In this document: positions 4,669 to 64,000 of the stretch, piece by piece
Position numbering within the stretch: the first letter of the stretch is position 1
Layout: each line of letters opens with the position of its first letter
From: Porphyra umbilicalis
Taxonomy: Eukaryota; Rhodophyta; Bangiophyceae; Bangiales; Bangiaceae
Length of the DNA: 64,000 nt
NCBI GenBank assembly: GCA_002049455.2
Contig: KV918940.1
Location: 62,001 to 126,000, forward strand
Direction of reading: 5' to 3'
Translations under genes and position numbers: made by a program
Notes under the pieces: generated by a model
What the model saw: the letters and a program-made list of their open reading frames with translations, nothing else
Databases searched by the model: none
What the model was told of the DNA's origin: nothing

Positions 4669-7600
4669 TTACGGCCTTTCGCCCGTCGCAAGGGGAAGGG
4701 AAGACGAACTTTTTCACTCCGGAAGACAGCGTATATGGGATAATCAAATTCTGGAACACCTTTTGCTTTTATATTATCATTAAAATACATCATACGTCCG
4801 TGCCCGACAAAAGAGACATGGAAAAAAGGCCCGTGAGCTGCTCTACATTATCCTTGTACTGAAGAAGGTGGTTGCTCTTCTCCTTCATGCCCGTTGTCTA
4901 GCTGGAAGTTGTCTCTCGCATCACGCAGTCTGTGACAGAAAAACCGCAAGTCTGGAACAGTAATATACACGCCTGGCAGAGGAATCACGAGAGATATGGG
5001 TGCTCTGGCACCCGCCTGCTGTCACACGGGGCTCACGTCGCGGGCGTTCCGACGTTGCGTGCCACTCAGGTGGTGCGGCGCGATGCACTCTCGCCGTCCG
5101 TTCGTCCGACACCCCCCCCCTTCATTGCTGCCGGTGTCACGATCCCGACGAGATCATGTCACGCTGGGGGACTTGGACGACTATCCTCGCCCCTCCACCA
5201 GTTGTCACTCGGTGGAGGCGCAATAATCACCGTATCAAAACGCGAGTAGCGTCACGGCAGTCGTCAGAGGCAGGGCTTTCCAACCATTATCTTTGGACGG
5301 TTTATATATGCTCGTGCGTATCCCTTTTATTTATTCTTTCCCTGTGAGACACAAAACAACGGGCAAACAGGCTGGAATCGCATTTTTCGGTGTTCCACGA
5401 CTTTGAGCACTGTTCCAGAATTTGATTACCCTAGTTACCTCTACAACGGGAACGGCCGCGACCGCTCGAGCAGCCACGCTATCCGCGACCACACAACCCC
5501 CCATTCGAACATTCGATCGGAAAACACTCTCTCAGGTCTCTGAAGCCACCTATTCGACAAGTCCCAAAAACTTACGCGAGCGTGACCACATCCGCCTCGG
5601 TCAACCAGCCCCCACGTGGTCGTGGCCACGACCCCATAAACACCGCACCTGCCCTCACGTACCTTTTTCACCACGATCGGCTCCCGCGGACCGTACGGAC
5701 GATGAAGACGTCGCCACCTCGCGCAAACCCGTAGGATGGTCGGGCGGACCTGTGCGCTTCTTTCCATCGTCAAGAGACAAACTGGGGACGTCGCCGGACA
5801 ACGTAGGACGCAAAACGGCCAGCCCGGGACGGTTTTGGTCAAGTACAGTCGTTCCACAAAAAACCTAGCACTCTGGCGGGATCAATACACAGCGTTTTGT
5901 CCCCGATTCCTTAAAACTGAGAACTGCCAGATTCGAACTCGCCCACCGACGGTTCGCAGAACTGTCGCACATTGATCATGCGATCAAATTATGCCCACTT
6001 TTTGTAGATCTTGGAGACAAAGCCCGCAGTGGAGTTCAGAAGTGCTCGAAGACCATCTGCACCGATATTCAGTGGGAATCATCCTCACACCAGCACCTGC
6101 AGATTCGGCAATTGTCCGGCGAAGTTGCTGCCCCATGCTCATGAAAGATCATTCCGATTCGCTGGTTCTGATCGTTCTGCGTATCGTGCTGAGAACTGTC
6201 TTGAAGTGGGTGTAAGATCATCCTGAGGATCGTGCTCAGGACTGTCCTGGCGTCGGAGTACAATCATCCTGGGGACCGTCGTCATAGATTGAGTGAACGA
6301 GTGCGCAAGATTGATCTAGATTCCTGTCTCAAGGACTCGATCGTAGATGATAGCCTGGACTACTTCGAGTGACGTCGTGAGGAGGGTCTGCCGAAACCGA
6401 TCAGAGAGCAAGACCGGCCCATGGGGCGTCGCTCCTGGGCCACGAAACGTGGGCAGAGGGAGCCTCAATGTGACTTGGTAGTCGTGCGACCGACACGCTG
6501 TTTCCCGGCGCAGAGGGGATGGGAACTGGGTAAACATGCGTCGGCTCGCACATCGAGAATACCGTGAAGTCCCGGACGCACCCAGTCCCGATTTATGAAT
6601 GATTGGGTCTCCCACACGCGCAGTAAATTCGTCCTCAGCTCAGTGGCAATCTCGTCCCCTATCGTCCTAACTCAGCAGGTCCCGAACTCGCAATCCCCCG
6701 GTTCAATACTCGCAATTCCCCGACTCAATACGTGTCAGAAGCACTCGCACCACAGACTCAAGCGCATGAGCGATGTGTCAGATTCCACGATGGGCATTGG
6801 TCTGAGCGGAGAGAGTGTCAAAAGGATTTTGTTCACACTGTTGACGGTATAGGCAGACATTTTGTTTGCGGAAGAGGCAGTCAGACTATCAGTTGAACAA
6901 GTCCTCACATTTTTTTCGAATGACAGTCCCCGAGATGATCTGTGGGTCAGGATGACACTGCTTCTGGAACGATCCCAGAGTCAGGCTCGAAGATGATCCG
7001 GTGAACGAGTCCAGAACTGTAGTGATGAACTGCCGAATCACAGAGGTCACTCGAGAATCAGGCAATCCGAAATGTAGGATTTTCGCTGATCCACGGAACT
7101 GTTGTGCACATGATCCTCCGAATCATGCTGAGGCCATCTCACAAAAGCTTTGCATGGCTATCTCAAAACATTCTTTCGCGTCTACTCGTTATAGATTTAC
7201 AAGCCGGCAAATTTAGAACTATCCCGGCGATGAAATACCGACCCGCAGTGTAGTGCCCTCGACATCTCACATGTGCCTGTTTTGCGATGCAACGCTCTCG
7301 ATTTTGGTCAGGCGCTCTCGAAAATCCCTTAAACGTGACCAATCCACGATTTCAGGAGACGCCCAGCGGCCCCGGGGGACCCTCTCGTGAGGGACTTGAG
7401 ATTTCTGAAACAAACTTTCGGGAACAGCCGACGCCGCGCCCGACTTCGGCATTCGTGGCAGGTCCATTGCAGACATGGCTCCAGAATGTCGCCCGCGTTC
7501 CCACGTGGTGGGCACTATCGCGCAGGCCGGCAAATTGTTGCCTCAATAGTTCCCACGGCTCTGCGCCCTCATTGGCACGAGGGTCTAGGAGGCACTGCCC

Positions 7601-13248: not shown

Positions 13249-16200
13249 ATGACGGGTCAACGCAGCGGCGATGATGCGGAGCCGCTCCTGGCGCCCGGCG
13301 CGGCGGGGCCATCGCGGACGGCCGTGCCGCTGCCCGATACGGACAGCGACGGGGGCAGCGAGCGGGGCAGCCGCTCGTCGGCGCTGCCAGCGTCGGGCTC
13401 CCGCACCCTCCGCGCCGGCGGGGGGGGCAGCGGCGGAGTTGGTGGCGACAACCCGTTTCCGTTTCCGTCCCCTTTTCGGCTGTACGATGGCCTGCCGTTG
13501 TGGAGGCGCTACCCGCTGCCGTCGGCCTGTGTGGTGATTTTTGGGGCCTTGGTCGTGCTGTGGTTGCTGGTGGGGCTGCTCTCTGGCGGCGGCGCGTCGT
13601 CCGACACGCTGGGGTTGGGTAAGCTCGGCGTCGCTAGTGCGGGGTCGTCTGACCCGGGGACGTTGGCCATGATTGCGGAGCTGCTCAAGGCGCGCAACGC
13701 GAGCCAGCCGCCCATCCCCATCCCGGAGTTGTTTGACCGGGTCGACGGCTACTTCACCCTCTTTCGCGGCACGGGTCTTGCGCAGGGGCGAGTGTTGCTG
13801 GAGGTGCCCGCGTCAGAGCTCGACAAGCCCTTCATCATCACCGCCATGTATGGAGCCGGTGATTCTGGTACGATGGATGTCACACTTTTGGGGGCAAGAG
13901 GTGGATCAGTATCAAGGAACGTGGTGTGCAGGTGTGTCTACGACCAAGGGAGATGTGGGTATTTTGGCATGGAGGGGGTCTGGGTCCGCGGCCGCTGTCT
14001 GGTGGGTCGACTGGACGGAAGGGCGGCCGAGTTGCTTACCTGTCGTCCTCGTCGACATGCTGACCGGCGAACTTCCTGGTCTCTGTTTTTTTCTTTTTTT
14101 CCCTGTCAATTCTGCTTTTCCTGGTCTGGTCGACGCACCACGCCCCCTCCCCCTTGCAACCCCTTCCAGAGATTGCGCTGACACATATGCCCGCTGAGAC
14201 GGTCGACCACAACGCGTTTGCCTTTCGGAAGAGCGACGCCATCTTTGCGGCCATCGACTTGTACCGCCCCATGATGGACCTTCGAGTGGCGGACAACACG
14301 TCTGCGATGGCCCAGTCATACAAGGAAGGTACGTGGCCGGGCTGGCTCAAGACGTTTGGCGTGCTGCACAATGTCACTTCTGACGGCTACCTGTTTGACG
14401 CCACGGATTGGGTGGAAGACGGCATGTTTGTCATCGAAAGCGACAGTGGCGACCCGGACCCCAAGCATAAGGTGTCGTATGGCGCGCGCTTCCTCAACGC
14501 CACAGCCTTCCCGCGCAACGTGGAGCTCGATGTGCAGATGCGCGCGCGCAGCGTGACTGCCCTGGGCGAGTCGCTCCTCTCGCCAGAGAATATCTTCTCT
14601 TTCATTGTCCACTACTCGGTGGTGGCGCTCCCGGAAGAGCCCATGACCGTGCGGATGGCCGACGAGAGACTCGGCTTCTTTGGCCAAACGTACGTATCTG
14701 TCGATGCGGACCGCGCACTTCACGACAAGCGCACGCTGCTGCAGCGGTGGGACCTCACCAAGCGCCTGCCTGTCGTGTATCACGTCGACCCGACGGTGCC
14801 AACGGCGTGGAGGCAGGCCATGAAGGAGGGGGTAGAGGAGTGGAACAAGGCGTTCAAGGCGGCCGGTCATCCCGACGCCGTCCGCGCGATCCTCCCCGAC
14901 GATGACAAGTGGCCGGAGGACTACGCTGCGGGGGACGTGCGGTACAACAGCATCTCGTGGGCGCCGAGTCTTGGTTCCACGTACGCGCTCGGCCCGTCAG
15001 ATGTGGACCCCCGGACGGGCGAGGTGCTCAACGCGGACATTGTGTTCACGCACGGTTGGGTGCGCGCCTGGCTGCGTGACTATCGCGAGTTTGTCGGCGA
15101 CACTGGCGCTCTGTCCCGCTTCAGCGCGCCGCCAGTGGCGCCGTCAACGGCGCGCGGCCGCGCCCTCAAGCGGGCAGAGGAGCGCCTCGCCACCCGCTCT
15201 TTTGTTGACGGCGAGCGGGTGGACGACCTCGGCGTGCAGATGTTACTCGCCACCCACCGCTTGCGCGAGTGGGAGGCGGGGGCGGCCGTGGCGCGGGCGG
15301 CAACGCTCAACACGTCCACAGCAGCGGCCACTAGCGACGCGATCGACCTCGGCACGTCGTCGCGGGTGATGTCTGGTGCGGATGCGTACATCATCGAAGC
15401 ACTCAAGGAGGTCGTTATGCACGAAGTCGGCCACACCCTCGGGCTGCGCCACAACTTTCGGGCGTCGGGCAACATCCCATGGGCGTCTCTCTCCGACGCC
15501 AAGTATGTCGAGGAGCACGGCCTATCATCGAGCGTCATGGACTACATGCCCGTTTTGGTCCGCGCGGACCCAGCAGACCAAACCCACTACTACACCAACA
15601 CGATTGGCGCTTATGACTATGCAGCGATCAAGTACGGGTACGGGGATTTCAAGACCGAGGCCGAGTTGAGCGCCTTTGCCGAAAAGGCCGCCACCGAGTA
15701 TGGCCTGACGTTTGCGACCGACTCGGACGGGGCGGACCCTGACGGCCCCGACCCGCTGGCGTCCTTGTGGGACATGAGCGCGACGCCACTCGACTACCAC
15801 GAAAATGTGCTGCAGCTGACGCGCAAGGTCGCCACCCGCCTGATGAACGCCACGGCGGCCGACGACACAGCATCGTGGCTCGACTTCACATCTTCCATGG
15901 AGTCGGCTATCCGCGTGACCGCCCGTTCGGTACGGTACGCGACCAAGTTCGTCGGCGGTCAACTGCCCTCCCGTGCGCACAGCAGCGGGAAGGACGGGAT
16001 CAAGCCCGGCGCGTCGGTGCCGCTCCGCCCTGTCGACGGGGCAACACAGGCCAAGGCGCTCAGCTTGATCCTGGCGGAGCTGGACCCCCGCAGCGGTATG
16101 CTTGGCACGACCACCGCCGCCACCTACGGCCCGTACATGGTCCATCGCGTCGGTTCTTATTGCGAGGTCGCATCCAAGGGGTGCCTCGGCTTTGCTTCGT

Positions 16201-16679
16201 CAGACGTGCCGCAGCTGTTGCGGGAGCTACGGGGCAAGGTGCTCGGGTCCCTCCTCCACCCGGACCGGCTCAACCGGCTCTCGGCGTCGCGGGCCATGGC
16301 GTCGGACGGCATCCCGTCGGTGGCCTCCCTGTTGCGGCAGATCACCGACACGCTTTTCATGACGCCCAAGGGTGGAGCGCCAAGCCGCTCGCTCGTGTTC
16401 CCTACCGACCGGGCAACGGACGCGGTGGTGGACGACCTGGTGCTCGACGCCCAAGCCCAATGGTTGCGGATGCTCCTCGAACAGGTGGATGCGCCCGTGT
16501 ACAAACCGACAGAGAACCACCCGCTGGCTGTCATTGCGCTCGCGGGGGAGATCTCCCGCATCCACGAAGGCGCCCGCTTGGCTGCCAAGGCGCGGCCAGA
16601 GGATGCCCACCTGCGCGGCGTGTTGTGGATGACCCGCAAGTTTGCGTCCAACCTTAACGACGGGGGGAGCGTGGACTGA
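13249..16679 (+). CDS. membrane-anchored zinc metalloprotease (metzincin, DUF5117/DUF4953-like)
   Basis: Two exons, 13249-13867 and 14170-16679, join in phase (donor GTACGA, acceptor TTCCAG), giving about 1,042 aa. An alternative in-phase donor at 13859 would remove three residues. The N-terminus is disordered and acidic. A hydrophobic segment at about residues 92-113 predicts a type II membrane anchor. The catalytic zinc motif HEVGHTLGLRH lies at about 624-634, and a Met-turn-like SVMDYMP at about 661-667. This matches the metzincin pattern HExxHxxGxxH in large bacterial zinc-dependent metalloproteases of the DUF5118/5117/4953 type; bacterial members are around 800-870 aa and the extra length here is N-terminal. 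All catalytic residues are present. Substrate is unknown. Placement in the secretory pathway or at the cell surface is inferred from the anchor. Confidence 0.85.
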
Positions 16680-50349: not shown

Positions 50350-50613
50350 TCACTCAATCTCCTCCTCTCCCGAAAAGCGCACTCGGCAGTGACGCAGGTC
50401 CGCCCAGTGCTCCCGCCCGTCCGTGCGTCGACGCACGCGGTGCTCGTCCGACTCGGGGCGAAATGCAACGACGTCGACGGTTGTCCAACCACGAGAGTAG
50501 TAAAAGAGCTCCAAGCTCTCGCCGACGAGGCCGCCGGTCCCCTTAGCGTCGGCGCCGCCAGCATCCGTTGTCATCGCCATGGCCGTTCCCGCGTTGCTGC
50601 CTGCTCGTGGAGA
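50350..50613 (-). pseudogene. 3' part of host gene interrupted by transposon copy 1 (Tudor-like end)
   Basis: Downstream fragment of the gene whose upstream part lies at 56970-57761, separated by the 6.4-kb transposon. It includes one TCT copy of the target duplication (AGA on the plus strand, 50611-50613), continues as PRAGSNAGTAMAMTTDAG and ends at 50350 after about 86 codons. The C-terminal block YYSRGWTTVDVVAFRPE, then HRVRRRTDGREHWADL, has the alternating pattern of a Tudor/PWWP-like barrel (aromatic, V-x-V, D-G, W-x-x-L). That resemblance is by eye only. The frame matches the upstream fragment exactly. Confidence 0.6.
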
Positions 50614-50800
50614 CCCTACAAGAAAATTTGACCGAAAATCCCAGGTTTTCTGCCTCGAAATCCCAGGTCGCCTGGGATACCGAGCCAAACCCACTTCCAT
50701 GGAGCGATTTACCTGGGATTCCGTGCAACGGCGACCTGGCCCGTGCGGATCGACCTGGGATTTCGAGTCCAATGTCGCGGATCGGCCTGGATGGGATCCT
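50614..50800 (+). repeat. left terminus and subterminal repeats of copy 1
   Basis: Terminal CCCTACAAGAAAATTTGACC followed within about 190 bp by at least six copies of a CCCAGGT/ACCTGGG-type motif in both orientations (for example ATCCCAGGT near 50637 and 50664, ACCTGGGAT near 50712 and 50753). Such arrays are the known binding sites of CACTA-encoded DNA-binding proteins; here that role is inferred. Confidence 0.8.
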
Positions 50801-51494
50801 CAGCCTCTCTGCTCATGCCGCTTCGCACGCCAACAATCCCCGCCAGCTCGGAACAAATTGTGAAGTGGCCGTGTCCTCATACATTCCCGACCTTCGGCCT
50901 GCCCCATCGCCACCGCGGCGTAGTGACACGTCAGGCTTCAGGGAGGGAGGGTATCCCCGGCTGGGCTTGTGCCCCGATACAGAAGGTCCGGTGACGCGGG
51001 CCGGCGGCGCTCTGGGCCGCCGCCAAGCGACCATTCCGGCATGTGGGGACATCAGGACCAGCATGCCTCGAGCTGTCAGACTGGAGCAGGGGGGGGGTGC
51101 AGCGGGTGGAAGGTGGCCAACACAGCGATGCATTGAGCCCCTCTCGTGTGCGTGCTGGAAGGGAAAAGTGAGACTTGTGGCCACCTGGTCGAAACACCTG
51201 AGGCTTATGACGAGCGAGCTGCTTCCAGTCTGGCCTTCCACCGTTGAGATCTAGATGCCGATGGAAGCTTCCAGAGCATTCCACTGTCAGCCGTGCAATC
51301 CTGCCATTTGATAGGGCACTGCTTCGCCCTGTTTGCCTGTAAAAGAGTCTCCCATGGCCTTACCGACGATGTGTTCCATCAGCCATCGACACTCGCATTG
51401 CCACCGCCGGTGCTCCTTCTTCGCCGCCTCGTCATCGACCTGCTGCTCCAGCTCCCCCCCCCATCCCAACCTCCACCCCCCACCAGCAGTGGCC

Positions 51495-54454
51495 ATGGTA
51501 CCCTCTGGCGTCGGCGAGCGGTACGCCTGTTACTGCCCATCCTGCACGGACGACGGCCGCAGTGGTCCCAACTCGGTGTGTCGGTCAACTTTTTTTATCC
51601 ACCGACAGCGTGAAAAGCGCCGTCGTCTGGAGCATGGCGGCCACGGTGGCGGTCCAGCAAATGCCCTACTCCCCAATGGTGGGGGGGGGGACCATCAGCG
51701 GGCGACGGGCTTTCGGTGCCGTCGGGCGGCCAGGGTGGACAACCGCCAGGGGATGACGGCGCCAGCGCACAGGCGGCCGTCGAGGCGGACCGGCGCCGAT
51801 GCGATGCGGACGAAACGCCGGACGCAAGTGTGGCATCGAGCGATTCCACGTCAAACGACGGATCAGACGGATCAGACGGGTCAAACGACGTGCCACCACC
51901 GGATTTCATCGCTGATCCGGAGCCAGAAGATCAGATTGGGGCTCCACCAATCCCGATTTACCAACCAACCGTCAGCACGAACGAAGTGCGTCTGACGGTG
52001 GGCCAGTTTAAGGATTGCAGAGCAGACCTTGCGCTGCATGCCTTTACAGTTCAACACGATTTGACGCAAGCGTCGATTGCGGATCTACTTCAATTAAGCT
52101 CCTCCGCGGCCACGTACTGCACGCCCCACCTTATGGAGCGTTTCGTCGATGCAAGCGTCAACTTGGAGACAAGGTTAGTCGACTGTTGCGTCCACGGGTG
52201 CGTGGCCTTCACCCATACGCGCGCGCAACAGACCACGTGCGACGCTTGCGGATCACCGCGCTTCAAAGCCAACGGCAAGCCGGCCAAACAGGTCACGTAC
52301 TGGTCCTTGACATCCTGGTTGGCTCACCTTCTCAGCGACCCCATAATTGGGAAGTCAATGATGGAGAACATGGCTGCGGCGCGCAAGGCTGTGGATGAAG
52401 TGGCCGACGGGGTCCACGACTACCCCCACAGCTCGAACTTCCGTCACTACCGCGATGCAGGACTACTTGATCACGGCCCTTTCGTACCAGTTAACTGTGG
52501 AACCGACGGCTTTCAGTTCTTTCGGCAGAACGGGTTCGAAGGCTGGCCGGTAACGGTCACACCCCTGAGCCTGAGCCCTAACCAACGGACGCGCATGAAG
52601 TATCAGCTACTGCTGGTCGTAACGCCTGGGCCAAGACAACCTGCCGACCTCGAATCGTTTCTACACCCCATTGCGGCGGAGTTAAACGAGCTGGCCAAGG
52701 GTGTTCCCGGTCTAATAGTAGCCAACTCGCCAACCCCAGTCGTGTTAAGGGCCGGAGTGCTCAACTTTACGACGGATCAGCCGGGCGGCGACAAGCTCTG
52801 TCAGCTAACTGGCGTCAGCAGCTACATTTACAACCGTTTTCGCCTCTTCCAGGGAATCTACGCTCCTGCAAGTAGCCATGTCTACTTCCCGCCTAAGGAT
52901 CTAAGCGGCAAGTCTCTGTTCAAAGTACGTGACTGCATTGCACCGCGACGCACGGCCGCAAGTATCGCCGTAAGTGCGGCTGAAGTGGAGGACGCGCGTG
53001 CAGAAGGCAGATCGGTCGCGTACCAGACAAGGCTGCAGCAGAAGAGTGGCGTCAAGGGCTACTCCCTGTTCTTCGCGCCCAGCCCAGCAATGCGCACCGC
53101 CTACCCGCACCTGAAACACTTATGGACAATGGGTCCTACCGCCGCCCCCTACGATACCATGCACTTGGTGCTCCTAAACGTTGTGCCGCACCTGTGGAAG
53201 CTCTTCGCTGGGCTTAAGCTGGTAAACAACAAGAAGGACGAAGACTACTTCTTACCGAAGGCGACGGTGGCCCTCATCGGCCGGGAGCTGCGGGAGGCGC
53301 GCCAGACGGTGCCCCTGGCCCAGGCCAGATCTCTGAGAAATATCGACATCCATCAAAAGTCCTTCAAGGCGGTCGACTGGATGCACTTTATCCTGTGCAG
53401 CGGAGAAGTACTGCTGGCAAGTCGGATTCCAAGCGCCTTCTACAAGATCTTCATGGCACTAAGCCGCGCCTGCCGTCTGCTATTCCGACCTAGGGGCGTA
53501 TCTGAGGCGGATATCCAGTCGATTGACAACGATCTCAAGTACTTCGTGACCAACTACTACGATAAGATATACCGCGGATCGGCCGAGCGGTTACCGCTCT
53601 GCCTGTCTACAATTTCTTCTCTTCTAGACATTGTTCCGCTGCTCCGCGCGTGCGGCCCAGCCTGGGTCGTCTGGCAGTTTCCGATGGAGCGGAAAATTGG
53701 GACGCTGGGAAAGCTGATCCGCTCCAGTTCAAGACCGCACGCCACCCTCGTCAAGAATGTCACGCGCAAATGCAAGGCCGACCTCATTACTTCCTTTGGC
53801 CAGCAATAGTTACCCACCGAATGGGCAGAAACAACTAAGAAACGTTGGACGGCGCCCGGTCTTCCTCGCGGCAGCCTGAAGGTACCTCAGGATGTCGGCG
53901 CTGACTGCGCGCTGCTACCACCTAGGAGCGAGCCGGTGGGCCTTGAAGGGGCGGAGCTTTCCAGTATGCGGGCAGTGCTGATCCAAGAGAACGCCGACGA
54001 AGTGCCTCTTCAGGTTTTGGCTAAGAAGTACTACCGAGCTAAGCTGGCGTCCGGAAAAATTGCCGGATCTAGGCCTGTCGGGTCGGACTGCGACAAGCGC
54101 CGGCGCCGCAACTACTTGGTACGGATCAACTCCCGAGAAGATTTCTTCCTCCCCGACGGTTCCGTGGGGGAGCGCTCAGTCTCAACGTTTGGGGCCATCT
54201 TACACTACGCGGCCGTGTTCATTGATGGCCAAGCAATGGCCTTCGCCTACGTAGAGCGCGTTAAGTCGGCTAAGGACCGCCCCGGCCGGTATGGTTACGC
54301 GGCGACCAAGTACGGGATTGAGTGTATCCTCGGGCTAGGCGGGTCGTGCGGATACGTACCAGTCGGCGCCGTGGCCGAAGTTGTCGCCACAGTTGGGAGA
54401 GAGGGCCTCCATTTTGTGTTGTTTAATAGGGAGCCGTTTTCTGAGGACCTGTAG
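51495..54454 (+). CDS. CACTA-like (tnp2-type) transposase, with one frame change and one in-frame TAG
   Basis: Three adjacent coding blocks read as one protein. Block 1 (from ATG 51495) encodes a zinc-finger-like YACYCPSCTDDG...FFIHRQREKRR, typical of the N-terminus of this family. At a G10 run (51681-51690) the frame must step back one base to reach block 2 (to 53806): acidic linker SDSTSNDGSDGSDGSND, a CxHxC...CDACG zinc ribbon, VNCGTDGFQFFR, then LWTMGPTAAPYDTMHLVLLN and GPAWVVWQFPMERKIGTLGK. The Asp and Glu positions fit a DDE-type active site (inferred). Block 2 ends ...SFGQQ at TAG 53807-53809, but the same frame stays open beyond it as LPTEWAETTKKRWTAPGLPR and on to 54454, ending in a conserved-looking domain (YLVRINSREDFFLPDG, VSTFGAILHYAAVF). 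Total is about 985 residues. The TAG could be a true stop, a mutation or a readthrough site. Confidence 0.8.
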
Positions 54455-54499
54455 AACCAGAAGGGGTGGGCTAAGAGGACGCAAACCACTTGTCATTGG

Positions 54500-55068
54500 A
54501 TTTAATTAAGCGTGTAACTGCCTAAAAATAATAGAAAGCAGTGACGAAGACAAGAACAACTGCCATATTTACTTTGTACACGCGAACAATTGCAGCTCTG
54601 ATTCATTCCAGTGACGTTTCTACGCCAACCGGATCTCGACCGGACCCAGGGCCCACGGAGGCCTCTGGGCCGCACGATCTCGGAAGAGCGGTCGAGGGGG
54701 CGGCATTGGTTTCCAATGGCCTCTGGCGGGGGTGCCCGTTCACCAGCACCGCCCGGCGGCAGCTTTCCGCCACCAGTGCTTCGTGGGCGCTCTACGGAAG
54801 GGGGGCGCTCAGAGCCTGCGCACTGTGAGTATTCTGGCCACGGCCCAGACGATGCCAGCGCACACCTGGCCACACTGACTACCACGGTGTGAGTGACGCG
54901 GTCACCGCAGTCGCAGGCACCACCCCGTCGCATCCAACGTCGCCTTCACCGTCGCGTCTCACAAAGGCACGCACACTCCCCGCCCCTTTTGCACCTGTCA
55001 TCTGTGTCGCACTCTCGACGCTCCTTCCCCGATACCCCTGGACCGATCCTTTCCCGAGCTCCCGTAAC
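54500..55068. other. intergenic spacer inside transposon copy 1
   Basis: Separates the transposase end from the accessory-gene start; AT-richer just after the transposase (about 54495-54560). Presumably contains the accessory-gene promoter; no motif recognised. Confidence 0.4.
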
Positions 55069-56449
55069 ATGGCGGCCGGCCGCAAGCGAGCGCGTGGTGC
55101 TAGCGGTACGTGTTGTTCGTTTCTTTGGATCTGATGTATATCCACTGCCCCCACCATCCCACTCCCCCCAACATCCCCCGTTCTGAGCGTGATTATGCTC
55201 TTTGTCCGTACGGCCACGTGTTATATGTGTGTGATATGCTGTCCCATCTTTGTATGGACACCCGGTCCTCCTCGTCTGTCTTTTTTCGGCACAGAATGGT
55301 GTACATACGGGGGGAATGCACACTGGTATGGTGACTGACGAGACCGAAATACTTGAGTGCTTTCCTTTGCGTTGTGTTTCTTTGTGCTCGATATCCTTCT
55401 CTTCGATCCATTTCGTTTTCTTTCCAGGCAATTTGGCCGCCGCCGTCGCGGCGGCTGCAGCACTGCCGGCGGCGGCTCCCCGCGCGTCGAACGACGCATC
55501 GTCACCCCCGCGAGCGCAGCCGAATCGAACTTCGGGACGCCGGCGCGCGGCCGTTGCCACGCCGCCACCACCGCCGAATCGTCGGCTGTCCTCTCCCCGC
55601 GAGGCGTTGCCCCCGCCCCCCGTGCGAACGCGTCTCTCTTCTCGCGGTGCCGGCGCGCCAAGCTCTTCGGCGACGGGGGCTACTTCCGCGTGCCCGAACG
55701 GGCGCGGCAGCGCCGAGGCTGCGGCCGTTCCGGCGAGCCCTGCTGGGCCTGCGGCGGTTTTGAACGGCTCTTCGGAGCGCCCGCTGGTGGTTCTGCCCGT
55801 CCCATCTCGGTCACGTGGGGCGGGCAGGACCCGCGGCACCACGAACGGCCGGTGCGGATTCGATCTTCACCCGGACCCGGATGCCGCGCGGCGTGCGGTG
55901 GCGATACCCGCAGCCGCCGTCAACCGCTTGCCAGGTTTTCAGGTCCTTAACATCTCTGGGCCGGACGTGATACACATCAAGCGGCTGGCAAAGTCGGCCG
56001 CTAAGGTGTTTGACCCCCTCGTCACCTTCTGCGCACAGGCGCGAGTGGACATTGACGTGGCCGTCCGGCACCTTGAGCGGTTCGAGCCGCGGCTGGGCGT
56101 TTGCGTTCGGAGCTGGGGTGCCTGCTGTCTACTGTCTAAGGTAGCCAACAACAGCGCGGCCTATCACAAGGCGCTCGCAAAGAAGGGGCAGGCCGGGCAG
56201 GCGGCGGCCGCGGCGGCGACGGCGGGCGGGGCAACGCTCCCGTCGCCGACACGGCCGCTGCCACCGCCGCCGACACGGCGGCTGCCACCGCCGCCAACAC
56301 GGCCGCTGCCACCGCCGCCGAATCGGTCGGTGCGACCCTCGTCACTGGCTGCACGGGTCAGATCGGGAACTAACGCCAGCGATCACGCAACCGTTGACAG
56401 TGCGACGGGTGCCCAGTCGGCCGAGGATTTCTTTGCTTCTCATCGCTAG
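55069..56449 (+). CDS. second transposon gene: accessory protein of unknown function
   Basis: Two exons, 55069-55105 and 55428-56449 (donor GTACGT, acceptor TTTCCAG), join in phase to give 352 aa beginning MAAGRKRARGASGNLAAAVA. The N-terminal ~170 residues are Ser/Ala/Pro/Arg-rich and probably disordered. The core AVNRLPGFQVLNISGPDVIH, then IKRLAKSAAKVFDPLVTFCA and HLERFEPRLGVCVRSWGACC, is non-biased and looks folded. It is followed by tandem PLPPPPTRR units (about 56250-56330) and a short acidic end. No family is recognised. By analogy with the second genes of CACTA elements (TnpA-type proteins), it may bind the subterminal repeats; that is inference. Confidence 0.7.
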
Positions 56450-56759
56450 TTAATAAACACAACCATCCGACCTGTTCACAACATTGTCTAATCAATGAAT
56501 ACTTGACTAAACGGAATATTGCTATTATAGCAAGCTGTCAAGTATACTCGAACACAGCGTACAGCAGAAACTGATATGCCAGTACGTAATACCGTACTTC
56601 ACTCTTATATGTAACATTCTTTGAAGGTATCCCAGTGTAAGATTGTGCAGTCACAACTGCACTCATACTTGAATATGGACCATTGCGCTGTCTGACAGCA
56701 TTGCTCTCAGCCACCCATCTATGCAACGTGGATGCCTGTGAGCGAACCAAAGTCCATAC

Positions 56760-56969
56760 AATCCCAGGTTGTACCTGGGATTCTAAGCCCCAGCGATGCC
56801 CGAAGATCCCAGGCAAGCTGGTATTCCGCATGAGCTTGAGGTCCTTTTTTCAGGGCTGTGAAGGTCTTCGACCTGGGATATTGAGCCACACAACCTGGTT
56901 TTTTGTGCCACTTCACCTGGTATTATGGGCCATAAAACTTGGGATTTCTCGTTAGATGTTCTAGTAGGG
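56760..56969 (+). repeat. right subterminal repeats and terminus of copy 1
   Basis: ATCCCAGGT and ACCTGGGAT occur near 56762 and 56775. Further units (ATCCCAGG near 56806, ACCTGGGAT near 56870, ACCTGGT near 56890 and 56916) lead to the terminal inverted repeat ending CTAGTAGGG at 56969. The arrangement mirrors the left end. Confidence 0.8.
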
Positions 56970-57761
56970 AGATGCAGAGAGCGTCATGGTGCTGTTCGGC
57001 GGGAGGCTCGGCTCTTGAAGATACGCGGACTCGGGGCCTGGTCTGCTGGCCGCGCACTGGTCCACGTGGCCGTCGTCGGATGGCGGCAGGGGCACACTCC
57101 CAGAGGCACTTCCTCTCGGGCGATACTGCTCCGCGTGAGTACCACCCTCCGGCCGTGTGGTGCGGCTCCTCATGCCGTCCGACTGGGCGCTCCAGAAGTC
57201 GTGCGGGTATGTAGGACGGGGATGTTGGCGGTGCTCAAAGCCGCGGCCGGTGCCGCTGCGCGCTGCCCCCCTTGGCGGTGACTGTCGCGTCTTCTCGGCT
57301 GTCGGCGTCGCCGCACCTGCCGCCCCCTTGATTGGCGTTGCTGGCATCGCCGATACCAAGACGTCGGTGGGGTCGAGGCCATGCAGCACCTGCTCCCGCC
57401 CCGTGCTCATGAGGCGCCGCGCCTTACGCACCGTCCCGGCTGCCGCCTCCAGGGCCGCTACGGCCAGTCTACCTGGTGACTGCGGTTCCTCGGGCGCCGC
57501 CCGGGTCCGTCGTCGGAGTGTTGCCGGTCGCGCCTGCGGTCTTGCCGCCGATGCGCCACCGCTGCCGCTACTTGCCGAACTGTCCGCCCATTGCACCTTG
57601 CGTGCGGCGCGGCTTCGAGTACTGACCGGCCGCCGCAATGGGTAGGTTGCTTTGGCCGATACCTTGGACAGGGTGGGCTTTGGAGGCGGTGGGTTCTTGG
57701 CAACAATGCCGCCCGTTTGCGCCGGCTTGGCGGCGGTCGCCGTTCCGTGCCAGCGCCGCAT
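56970..57761 (-). pseudogene. 5' part of host gene interrupted by transposon copy 1
   Basis: Minus-strand frame from ATG 57761 (MRRWHGTATAAKPAQTGG) running 264 codons to the transposon edge, where it would end within the element at TAG. It is rich in Ser/Arg/Pro with a SP/TP-rich pattern (MPATPIKGAAGAATPTAEKT, KNPPPPKPTLSKVSAKAT), suggesting a disordered, basic, possibly chromatin-linked protein. The frame position at 56970 and at 50610 is compatible: ignoring the element and one target-site copy, 792 + 261 nt form one uninterrupted frame of 350 codons plus stop. The frame remains open upstream to 57905, so the true start could be earlier or in an upstream exon. No family recognised apart from the Tudor-like C-terminus on the other side. 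Confidence 0.6.
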
Positions 57762-59108: not shown

Positions 59109-60623
59109 TCAAACACCCAAATCGGGACGATCGCAGACAAACACGTTGCGTTGACGATCGCACAGGCGTCTCGAGATCTGATATTCATGAGCATGCGGTC
59201 GCGAGTGGCCGCAGATTCCGTTCGAGGCGCAGGCGGCGCTCATTGCCGGGCCCTGTGGGGGGCGGGGCCGGCGGGACACGGTTTTTTCCTGGTGGACATC
59301 CGCCGCCACGCGCGATTCTGGGTCGGCCCCCCCACGGCTGAACGGTTTGATTAGGGGAGGGGGGGCGCCTAGAGGCACTGTCGCATGGGTTGGCGAGCGG
59401 CCCCAATGCGGTCGTCCAGCGGAATTCTTTGGCGGGGTGGCCCCCAGTTGACGCGCTGCTGGTGCCACCAACCTGCGCTGGGAGCCAATCGGGGGGGGGT
59501 TCCGCGCAGCGCAACATTGTGTGGCCGGCATCTGCCTNCCTGACGGCCCGTCACCGCCGCCGACTGTCGCCGCCGGCCCCGCCATGACGGAGGCCAAGGA
59601 TGGGAGGGAGGGCGCCTTGGTCAGTGCCCCCCCGCCCCCCCACCGTTGGACAAAGAGCGACGGGAGGCCGGCGCCGGCGGCCGCCTCCAACGCCGCCGTT
59701 TGGGTGGACGGCAACTGCGCGAGCGCCGACGGAAGCCGCACCAGCCGCACGTCCACGGGCGTGCCGCGGGCGGGGGATCGCCCGCCGTCCGCCGCCCGCA
59801 TCGCAGCGCCCGCCCAGAAGGCGCTCGGCCGTGGCGGCGGGGCGCCCCCAGACAGCATGCGGCGGGCGGTTGGCGGTGGCGGTCCGCCGCCGTCGCCGTC
59901 GCCGCCGCCTCGGCGGCCGTCTGCGTCGCCGCTCGCCCACGAGCGGCTCGACCGCGGCGGCAGCGACGGCGGTGGCGCGGGCGCCCACACCAGCAGCGAC
60001 TCGTGGGCGGGGGCGGCGGGCAGCGAGTGGAGCGCCGCCGACGGGCCCGCCCACGAGTGGCTCAACCGGAAGGGTGGGGGCTCCCCCGAGGGTTGTGGGC
60101 CGCTCGACAGCGCCGGTGTGGTCACCTCCGCCTCCCCCGACTCCATGCTGCTGTTGCTTCCACGAACGGGGGGTGGCAGCCGTCTGCCGCCGCCGCTGCC
60201 GCCGCCGCCACCGCGTCGGTCGCCGCTGCCGCCGTCGCTGCTGCGCCCGTCGCTGCTGCCGCCGTCGCTGCCAAACCGGTCGCTGTGGGCCGCCCTCACC
60301 CACCGCACGCGGGCAAAGGAGCTGTCGCTGAGCGGCTCGCTGCGGCTGGACGACAGCGCCCCCGACTCGCGTGGCGAGGGGGCGTTGGGAGTGGCGCGCG
60401 GGGAGACCGAGCCGTGGACGAGCGCCGCCGCCGTCGACGATCGGGGCAGAGGGGAACCGCCGGCAGGGGCTCGGGGCGCGCCGCCGCCGTGAAGGAAGGT
60501 GCCCTGCCGGTCTGCCCGCCCGCTACAGTCGTCCCCCGTTGCCGCCGGGGGGGCGGCCGACTCGGACGGTGTGCGCTTGAGGGTGATCAAGATCTTGTGC
60601 CGCAGGCGGGTGCCAAATCCCAT
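59109..60623 (-). CDS. unrecognised Ser/Pro/Gly-rich protein
   Basis: Uninterrupted 504-aa minus-strand frame. The start ATG at 60623 opens a non-biased basic segment MGFGTRLRHKILITLKRTPS, which resembles a short conserved N-terminal motif. The remainder is mostly disordered: SDSSFARVRWVRAAHSDRFG, a GGSSDGRSSDGGSGDRRGG stretch, then recurring short motifs around aromatic residues (FRLSHSWAG, SSRSWASGD, PSAFWAG, PSLFVQRWGG) spaced by Ser/Pro linkers. Those repeated S-x-W-A-(S/G) elements could be linear binding motifs. One codon contains an unresolved base (N at 59538). The last ~80 codons look less coding-like, so the true end may be upstream of 59109, for example at an unrecognised intron. 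No family recognised. Confidence 0.5.
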   Translation of the reverse strand: MGFGTRLRHKILITLKRTPSESAAPPAATGDDCSGRADRQGTFLHGGGAPRAPAGGSPLPRSSTAAALVHGSVSPRATPNAPSPRESGALSSSRSEPLSDSSFARVRWVRAAHSDRFGSDGGSSDGRSSDGGSGDRRGGGGGSGGGRRLPPPVRGSNSSMESGEAEVTTPALSSGPQPSGEPPPFRLSHSWAGPSAALHSLPAAPAHESLLVWAPAPPPSLPPRSSRSWASGDADGRRGGGDGDGGGPPPPTARRMLSGGAPPPRPSAFWAGAAMRAADGGRSPARGTPVDVRLVRLPSALAQLPSTQTAALEAAAGAGLPSLFVQRWGGGGALTKAPSLPSLASVMAGPAATVGGGDGPSXRQMPATQCCAARNPPPIGSQRRLVAPAARQLGATPPKNSAGRPHWGRSPTHATVPLGAPPPLIKPFSRGGADPESRVAADVHQEKTVSRRPRPPQGPAMSAACASNGICGHSRPHAHEYQISRRLCDRQRNVFVCDRPDLGV

Positions 60624-60877: not shown

Positions 60878-63800
60878 CCCTACAAGAAAATTTGACCAAA
60901 AATCCCAGGTTTTCTGCCTCGAAATCCCAGGTCGCCTGGGATACCGAGCCAAACCCACTTCCATGGAGCGATTTACCTGGGATTCCGTGCAACGGCGACC
61001 TGGCCCGTGCGGATCGACCTGGGATTTCGAGTCCAATGTCGCGGATCGGCCTGGATGGGATCCTCAGCCTCTCTGCTCATGCCGCTTCGCACGCCAACAA
61101 TCCCCGCCAGCTCGGAACAAATTGTGAAGTGGCCGTGTCCTCATACATTCCCGACCTTCGGCCTGCCCCATCGCCACCGCGGCGTAGTGACACGTCAGGC
61201 TTCAGGGAGGGAGGGTATCCCCGGCTGGGCTTGTGCCCCGATACAGAAGGTCCGGTGACGCGGGCCGGCGGCGCTCTGGGCCGCCGCCAAGCGACCATTC
61301 CGGCATGTGGGGACATCAGGACCAGCATGCCTCGAGCTGTCAGACTGGAGCAGGGGGGGGGGTGCAGCGGGTGGAAGGTGGCCAACACAGCGATGCATTG
61401 AGCCCCTCTCGTGTGCGTGCTGGAAGGGAAAAGTGAGACTTGTGGCCACCTGGTCGAAACACCTGAGGCTTATGACGAGCGAGCTGCTTCCAGTCTGGCC
61501 TTCCACCGTTGAGATCTAGATGCCGATGGAAGCTTCCAGAGCATTCCACTGTCAGCCGTGCAATCCTGCCATTTGATAGGGCACTGCTTCGCCCTGTTTG
61601 CCTGTAAAAGAGTCTCCCATGGCCTTACCGACGATGTGTTCCATCAGCCATCGACACTCGCATTGCCACCGCCGGTGCTCCTTCTTCGCCGCCTCGTCAT
61701 CGACCTGCTGCTCCAGCTCCCCCCCCTATCCCAACCTCCACCCCCCACCAGCAGTGGCCATGGTACCCTCTGGCGTCGGCGAGCGGTACGCCTGTTACTG
61801 CCCATCCTGCACGGACGACGGCCGCAGTGGTCCCAACTCGGTGTGTCGGTCAACTTTTTTTATCCACCGACAGCGTGAAAAGCGCCGTCGTCTGGAGCAT
61901 GGCGGCCACGGTGGCGGTCCAGCAAATGCCCTACTCCCCAATGGTGGGGGGGGGGACCATCAGCGGGCGACGGGCTTTCGGTGCCGTCGGGCGGCCAGGG
62001 TGGACAACCGCCAGGGGATGACGGCGCCAGCGCACAGGCGGCCGTCGAGGCGGACCGGCGCCGATGCGATGCGGACGAAACGCCGGACGCAAGTGTGGCA
62101 TCGAGCGATTCCACGTCAAACGACGGATCAGACGGATCAGACGGGTCAAACGACGTGCCACCACCGGATTTCATCGCTGATCCGGAGCCAGAAGATCAGA
62201 TTGGGGCTCCACCAATCCCGATTTACCAACCAACCGTCAGCACGAACGAAGTGCGTCTGACGGTGGGCCAGTTTAAGGATTGCAGAGCAGACCTTGCGCT
62301 GCATGCCTTTACAGTTCAACACGATTTGACGCAAGCGTCGATTGCGGATCTACTTCAATTAAGCTCCTCCGCGGCCACGTACTGCACGCCCCACCTTATG
62401 GAGCGTTTCGTCGATGCAAGCGTCAACTTGGAGACAAGGTTAGTCGACTGTTGCGTCCACGGGTGCGTGGCCTTCACCCATACGCGCGCGCAACAGACCA
62501 CGTGCGACGCTTGCGGATCACCGCGCTTCAAAGCCAACGGCAAGCCGGCCAAACAGGTCACGTACTGGTCCTTGACATCCTGGTTGGCTCACCTTCTCAG
62601 CGACCCCATAATTGGGAAGTCAATGATGGAGAACATGGCTGCGGCGCGCAAGGCTGTGGATGAAGTGGCCGACGGGGTCCACGACTACCCCCACAGCTCG
62701 AACTTCCGTCACTACCGCGATGCAGGACTACTTGATCACGGCCCTTTCGTACCAGTTAACTGTGGAACCGACGGCTTTCAGTTCTTTCGGCAGAACGGGT
62801 TCGAAGGCTGGCCGGTAACGGTCACACCCCTGAGCCTGAGCCCTAACCAACGGACGCGCATGAAGTATCAGCTACTGCTGGTCGTAACGCCTGGGCCAAG
62901 ACAACCTGCCGACCTCGAATCGTTTCTACACCCCATTGCGGCGGAGTTAAACGAGCTGGCCAAGGGTGTTCCCGGTCTAATAGTAGCCAACTCGCCAACC
63001 CCAGTCGTGTTAAGGGCCGGAGTGCTCAACTTTACGACGGATCAGCCGGGCGGCGACAAGCTCTGTCAGCTAACTGGCGTCAGCAGCTACATTTACAACC
63101 GTTTTCGCCTCTTCCAGGGAATCTACGCTCCTGCAAGTAGCCATGTCTACTTCCCGCCTAAGGATCTAAGCGGCAAGTCTCTGTTCAAAGTACGTGACTG
63201 CATTGCACCGCGACGCACGGCCGCAAGTATCGCCGTAAGTGCGGCTGAAGTGGAGGACGCGCGTGCAGAAGGCAGATCGGTCGCGTACCAGACAAGGCTG
63301 CAGCAGAAGAGTGGCGTCAAGGGCTACTCCCTGTTCTTCGCGCCCAGCCCAGCAATGCGCACCGCCTACCCGCACCTGAAACACTTATGGACAATGGGTC
63401 CTACCGCCGCCCCCTACGATACCATGCACTTGGTGCTCCTAAACGTTGTGCCGCACCTGTGGAAGCTCTTCGCTGGGCTTAAGCTGGTAAACAATAAGAA
63501 GGACGAAGACTACTTCTTACCGAAGGCGACGGTGGCCCTCATCGGCCGGGAGCTGCGGGAGGCGCGCCAGACGGTGCCCCTGGCCCAGGCCAGATCTCTG
63601 AGAAATATCGACATCCATCAAAAGTCCTTCAAGGCGGTCGACTGGATGCACTTTATCCTGTGCAGCGGAGAAGTACTGCTGGCAAGTCGGATTCCAAGCG
63701 CCTTCTACAAGATCTTCATGGCACTAAGCCGCGCCTGCCGTCTGCTATTCCGACCTAGGGGCGTATCTGAGGCGGATATCCAGTCGATTGACAACGATCT

Positions 63801-64000
63801 CAAGTACTTCGTGACCAACTACTACGATAAGATATACCGCGGATCGGCCGAGCGGTTACCGCTCTGCCTGTCTACAATTTCTTCTCTTCTAGACATTGTT
63901 CCGCTGCTCCGCGCGTGCGGCCCAGCCTGGGTCGTCTGGCAGTTTCCGATGGAGCGGAAAATTGGGACGCTGGGAAAGCTGATCCGCTCCAGTTCAAGAC
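60878..64000 (+). mobile_element. CACTA-like DNA transposon, copy 2 (cut by window end)
   Basis: Begins CCCTACAAGAAAATTTGACC and is collinear with copy 1 at an offset of 10,264-10,265 bp. The preceding bases are AAG, the expected site of a 3-bp duplication whose partner lies beyond the window. In 3.1 kb I see only a few differences from copy 1: one G-run length, a CCCAT/CCTAT change, ACCGAAAA/ACCAAAAA near the left end, and AAC/AAT in a Lys-Asn-Asn-Lys stretch. The right end should lie near 67.23 kb by collinearity. Confidence 0.92.
61760..64000 (+). CDS. transposase of copy 2 (3' end outside window)
   Basis: Same protein as at 51495 in copy 1: ATG 61760, zinc-finger-like block, the same G10 run (here about 61946-61955) requiring the same frame step, then the main transposase frame open to the window end. 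No premature stop is visible. The region corresponding to the copy-1 TAG (53807) would be at about 64072, just outside, so whether the stop is shared cannot be seen here. Confidence 0.85.

Follow-up and report, generated by a model that had tools for sequence, protein, structure and literature searches.

Plant CACTA transposons carry subterminal repeats and produce 3-bp target-site duplications, as passages on soybean Tgmt* describe (PMC2613891). The animal TRC element SmTRC1 has ends starting with CCC, and the part of the report devoted to it gives 2-bp direct repeats for 7 of 14 copies (PMC1636069). CACTA elements that are spliced or excised from genes are also known, and sections on soybean TgmR* place this element in the intron of a MYB gene (PMC4219821). 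Here, we describe a related element in a window of 64,000 nucleotides, the whole stretch of Porphyra umbilicalis DNA that was analysed. A narrow literature search, which is no evidence of absence, found no paper on this element.

The element possesses a Transposase_21 (tnp2) domain, a short target-site duplication, inverted ends with a CCC core and clustered subterminal repeats. By these features it belongs to the CACTA/EnSpm superfamily in the broad sense, which includes TRC. It shares Transposase_21/tnp2, short inverted ends, the 3-bp duplication and subterminal repeats with plant CACTA elements (En/Spm, and soybean Tgmt* as far as described in those passages, PMC2613891). Unlike in these elements, its ends start with CCCTA, one letter different from the CACTA that defines the plant type in the strict sense. 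The ends read CCCTAC...GTAGGG, corresponding to CCCTACAAGAA and CCCTACTAGAA when read inward. All nine copies of CCTGGGAT are located in the outer ~210 nt of either element end; a search of the element found no exact copy between the two subterminal clusters, and the 54.5 kb outside the element contain two. The coordinates of all features are collected in Table 1.

Table 1 Features of the element and of the interrupted open frame (window coordinates).
Feature	Position	Strand	Remarks
CACTA-type DNA transposon, 6,356 bp	50614..56969	+ (strand of transposase gene)	Inverted ends, 3-bp duplication, near-identical copies
Target-site duplication AGA, left copy	50611..50613	.	
Target-site duplication AGA, right copy	56970..56972	.	
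Left terminal inverted repeat CCCTACAAGAA	50614..50624	+	10/11 match opposite end
Right terminal inverted repeat CCCTACTAGAA, minus-strand reading	56959..56969	-	
Left subterminal repeats CCTGGGAT	50638..50761	.	5 copies, both orientations; element positions 25, 47, 58, 99, 141
Right subterminal repeats CCTGGGAT	56761..56879	.	4 copies, both orientations; element positions 6148, 6161, 6193, 6259
Transposase frame with Transposase_21 domain	51716..53809	+	Pfam PF02992
Second element gene (predicted), two exons, 352 residues	55069-55105 + 55428-56449	+	Basic N-terminus
5' part of interrupted open frame, 792 nt from ATG	56970..57761	-	Open; codon usage not gene-like
3' part of interrupted open frame, 261 nt including stop	50350..50610	-	Open; Tudor-like by eye

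The genome from which the window comes (83.8 Mb in 665 contigs) was searched for copies of the element; the best 25 of 216 candidates were scored and 30 matches were listed. The counts given here refer to the 19 full-length copies among them, leaving out 11 partial or fragmentary matches (L020 and L022-L031). CCCTAC is present at both ends in 18 of the 19 full copies listed, the remaining one (L021) having CCCCAC at one end. The combination of Transposase_21 with inverted ends starting with CCC resembles the animal element SmTRC1 in the part of PMC1636069 that describes it. The flanks differ from the 2-bp repeats given there: of the 19 full-length copies listed for this family, 17 lie between identical 3-bp flanks, with L006 and L018 as exceptions. 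The element boundaries and the target-site duplication, previously deduced in a sequence-only reading of the window, are correct by the same observation.

At least 16 full copies in this genome are near-identical, the window copy included (at least 15 others). Over their 6.36 kb, sixteen of them are on average 14.6 substitutions apart (range 1-26). Seven substitutions are private to the window copy; two of these are adjacent and near an indel, and one of the seven is a nonsense change at 53807-53809. The insertion itself is, as judged by copy divergence, recent, because 15 other full copies are near-identical; this bears out the earlier claim of recency. In a protein search, the best 64 of 277 candidates were scored and the 68 stretches listed range from identical to 40% identity, a spread that we read as a large, old family that has recently undergone a burst.

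The transposase frame matches PF02992 with 31.3 bits (E 1.5e-7; Pfam cut-off 28.6). In the window copy this frame is ended by the private nonsense codon, which is absent from the 15 other near-identical copies and could reflect either decay or an assembly error. The open frame measures 731 aa in the window copy; among the 15 others, 14 have 946 or 1046 aa and the remaining one has 879 aa. Compared with three older copies, the frame has a dN/dS of 0.51-0.56. A second gene, as in plant CACTA elements according to the passages on Tgmt* (PMC2613891), is in this element only predicted. The GT and AG of its intron are kept in all 19 full copies among the matches listed, and its dN/dS is 0.41-0.51 by a simplified count against the same three older copies, one of which has an in-frame stop. 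A eukaryotic host agrees with this predicted intron and with the size of the genome. Pfam gave no match for the uninterrupted frame 55250-56449 of this gene, which may possibly be a TnpA counterpart.

Removal of the element together with one AGA copy leaves a joined frame of 1,053 nt, that is, 350 codons plus the stop, with no internal stop. It runs on the minus strand from the ATG at 57761 to the stop at 50350 and spans 404 codons from stop to stop. The in-phase arithmetic and coordinates reported earlier (792 + 261 nt, no stop) are exact to the base. The frame runs on through the empty site because the original sequence comes back once the insertion and one duplication are deleted, so that the sole question is whether this old sequence was a gene. 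The continuity had also been presented as independent confirmation of the element boundaries, for which it is worth at best a factor of three. The left side has 317, 87 and 3 open codons in its three phases and the right side 87, 22 and 13, and the meeting of the longest left phase (317) with the longest right phase (87) is a 1-in-3 chance event.

Moreover, long frames are common in this region. Outside the element, frames of at least 404 codons cover 43.7% of 5,152 sampled points, which were taken every 10 bases of one window and, being neighbours, are not independent. The fraction is 31.1% of 2,407 points at local GC 0.60-0.70, comprising 13.3% of 1,276 points at GC 0.60-0.65 and 51.1% of 1,131 points at GC 0.65-0.70; the local GC at the insertion site is 0.649. 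Frames of this length are also found at 12 of the 19 full-length family sites, including the window site, and three of the 12 run off the 1.5-kb flanks, their lengths being lower bounds. No clear preference of the family for open frames emerged: the GC-matched mean tail fraction of the 19 sites is 0.40, where 0.5 stands for no preference and the background is this window only. Given the 1-in-3 phase chance and the abundance of long frames, we reject the continuous frame as an independent proof of where the element begins and ends. Since long open frames are common in this GC-rich genome, the joined frame leaves a broken gene unproven. The case shows that, where a genome is rich in GC, a joined frame free of stops is a weak argument for a broken gene.

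Codon usage was used to assess the two parts of the frame. The coding model was built on seven conserved genes of this genome, six proteasome loci and one Met-zincin gene, each represented by the stretch that Pfam matched; in L038, one of the proteasome loci, this stretch contains a stop. The model, with its seven conserved genes, may score proteins that are disordered and poorly conserved too low. L041, a seventh proteasome locus, was excluded because it shares its last 40 residues with L039, although its first 60 bases are absent from L039. The synonymous-codon score ranges from 0.10 to 0.38 for the seven genes (leave-one-out), and is -0.09 for the first 263 codons of the joined frame and 0.01 for the last 87. 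The last 61 codons score 0.119 +/- 0.106, inside the range of real genes. The joined stretch scores highest in its own frame among the six frames, and the unjoined 5' frame comes 39th among the 83 long frames of the window. By the full-codon score, 32% of 232 background windows equal or beat the 5' part and 4.9% of 2,278 overlapping ones equal or beat the last 61 codons, which have a value of 0.23 versus 0.47-0.78 for the seven genes, these being scored on their own training. The sliding score peaks toward the 3' end, and a stretch of 50 codons in the 5' part, beginning at codon 100, is level with parts of the 3' end. The last ~61 codons thus appear mildly gene-like and the first 263 are without gene-like usage; by these scores, the 3' end could hold a real exon and the 5' part has no support. 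The highest codon-usage score of the 83 long window frames belongs to a DUF5117/DUF4953 Met-zincin-like metalloprotease gene (window 14064-16676, plus strand), which is partly in the training set of the model.

The 3' end had been read as a Tudor-like motif. A Tudor domain was considered and set aside, having a single weak pairwise match in its favour. Pfam reported no family for the 3' part up to E 10, with filters that drop most weak matches; the sole PDB match, to a ribosomal protein at E 8.6, is meaningless; and a search of the own genome found no second copy. In this genome, one PTM/DIR17-type Tudor domain lies above the cut-off and two matches lie below it. The former matches the 3' end weakly in a pairwise comparison (P 0.02 with 2,000 shuffles, one of three comparisons), and the latter two give P 0.37 and 0.26. 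With a profile built from these three own-genome sequences, 780 of 1,854 scoring shuffles (2,000 made) equal or beat the 3' end.

The locus is probably explained by an ordinary, young insertion of CACTA type into GC-rich DNA whose minus strand is open by chance. A young element of the superfamily would have been cut and pasted into the site and have duplicated AGA, the 3-bp stagger of the insertion being suggested by the family as a whole, and there would have been little time since then for stops to arise in the flanking frame. At the private substitution rate of the window copy, about one change would be expected in 1,053 nt. The stretch would then be either untranslated as read, or an exon would hold only its 3' end, probably about the last 61 codons. 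As a sub-case of this explanation, a real last exon may start inside the 3' part, the element having landed upstream of it in intergenic DNA, a UTR or an intron. We regard this as possible but doubtful: the coding score is highest toward the 3' end, but the signal is weak and the stretch from codon 100 of the 5' part scores as high as parts of that end. The alternative that all 350 codons belong to a real but poorly conserved gene whose end is Tudor-like, and of which the genome carries a recent, possibly mutable, knockout allele, is unlikely. It would account for the continuous frame with an ATG, the mildly coding-like last 61 codons and the weak match to the PTM/DIR17-type Tudor domain of the same genome, and the near-identical copies imply the recent insertion that it needs. 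Against it stand the first 263 of 350 codons, which lack gene-like usage, the Tudor profile equalled or beaten by shuffles and the long frames common in the window, as well as Pfam and PDB searches without a meaningful match and own-genome searches that found no paralogue. Specifically, the search of the own genome with the joined frame returned, beyond its own two pieces, one match at E 0.10 with 36% identity. Of the knockout put forward in the sequence-only reading, the recent insertion therefore stands and the status of the target as a gene stays putative, its 5' three quarters having neither gene-like codon usage nor a paralogue and its 3' end being mildly coding-like; a gene knockout by insertion is possible, and unproven. 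In its fullest form, in which a still mobile CCC-ended, 3-bp-duplicating CACTA family has newly knocked out a Tudor-like gene that is uncharacterised, the allele being potentially mutable and the copy with the broken transposase frame being moved in trans, the proposal seems distinctly improbable. If the gene is real, presence/absence alleles would constitute a natural knockout.

The same reading had offered removal of the element by splicing, which would leave the gene working. The precedent is soybean TgmR*, an intron-borne CACTA element that is spliced with its intron and, like the present one, is discussed as interrupting a host gene in the sections of PMC4219821 that treat it. There the gene is known, and the element sits in one of its introns and leaves by splicing or excision; here the host gene is putative and splicing is disfavoured. 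The far element end reads TTTTCTTGTAG on the host strand and would be a passable acceptor. However, the host-strand reading enters the element as CCC TAC TAG, with the in-frame TAG at element nt 7-9, and translation running into the element would end after two of its codons. Past this stop, 53 nt inside the element, lies the one good donor; on the host side, no donor within 150 nt scores above -3.2 by a generic matrix, which comes from general knowledge and is not derived from this genome. The frame is kept by 25 of 154 donor-acceptor pairs, and the top-ranked of these depend on weak host donors. Moreover, the intact frame needs neither splicing nor selection because the insertion is recent, and the open frame is thereby already explained. 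We therefore consider it very improbable that the element is spliced out of a transcript.

With at least 16 near-identical full copies, the family is a good candidate for a transposon still moving in this organism, and might be useful for mutagenesis or for dating insertions. A second near-identical copy (L010) is located 3.9 kb downstream of the first in the same orientation, occupies window positions 60878-64000 and runs off the window; AAG is found on either side of it. The assembly has a single N in the window, at position 59538. Local hopping was considered for the two window copies, which start 10 kb apart, and was rejected, as they differ at the family-splitting columns 51462 and 53989; the two are not evidently sisters by these columns. 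Elsewhere in the genome, L006 and L008 (G000 C320:52674-66535) have their left flank in common, suggesting that flank and element were duplicated together.
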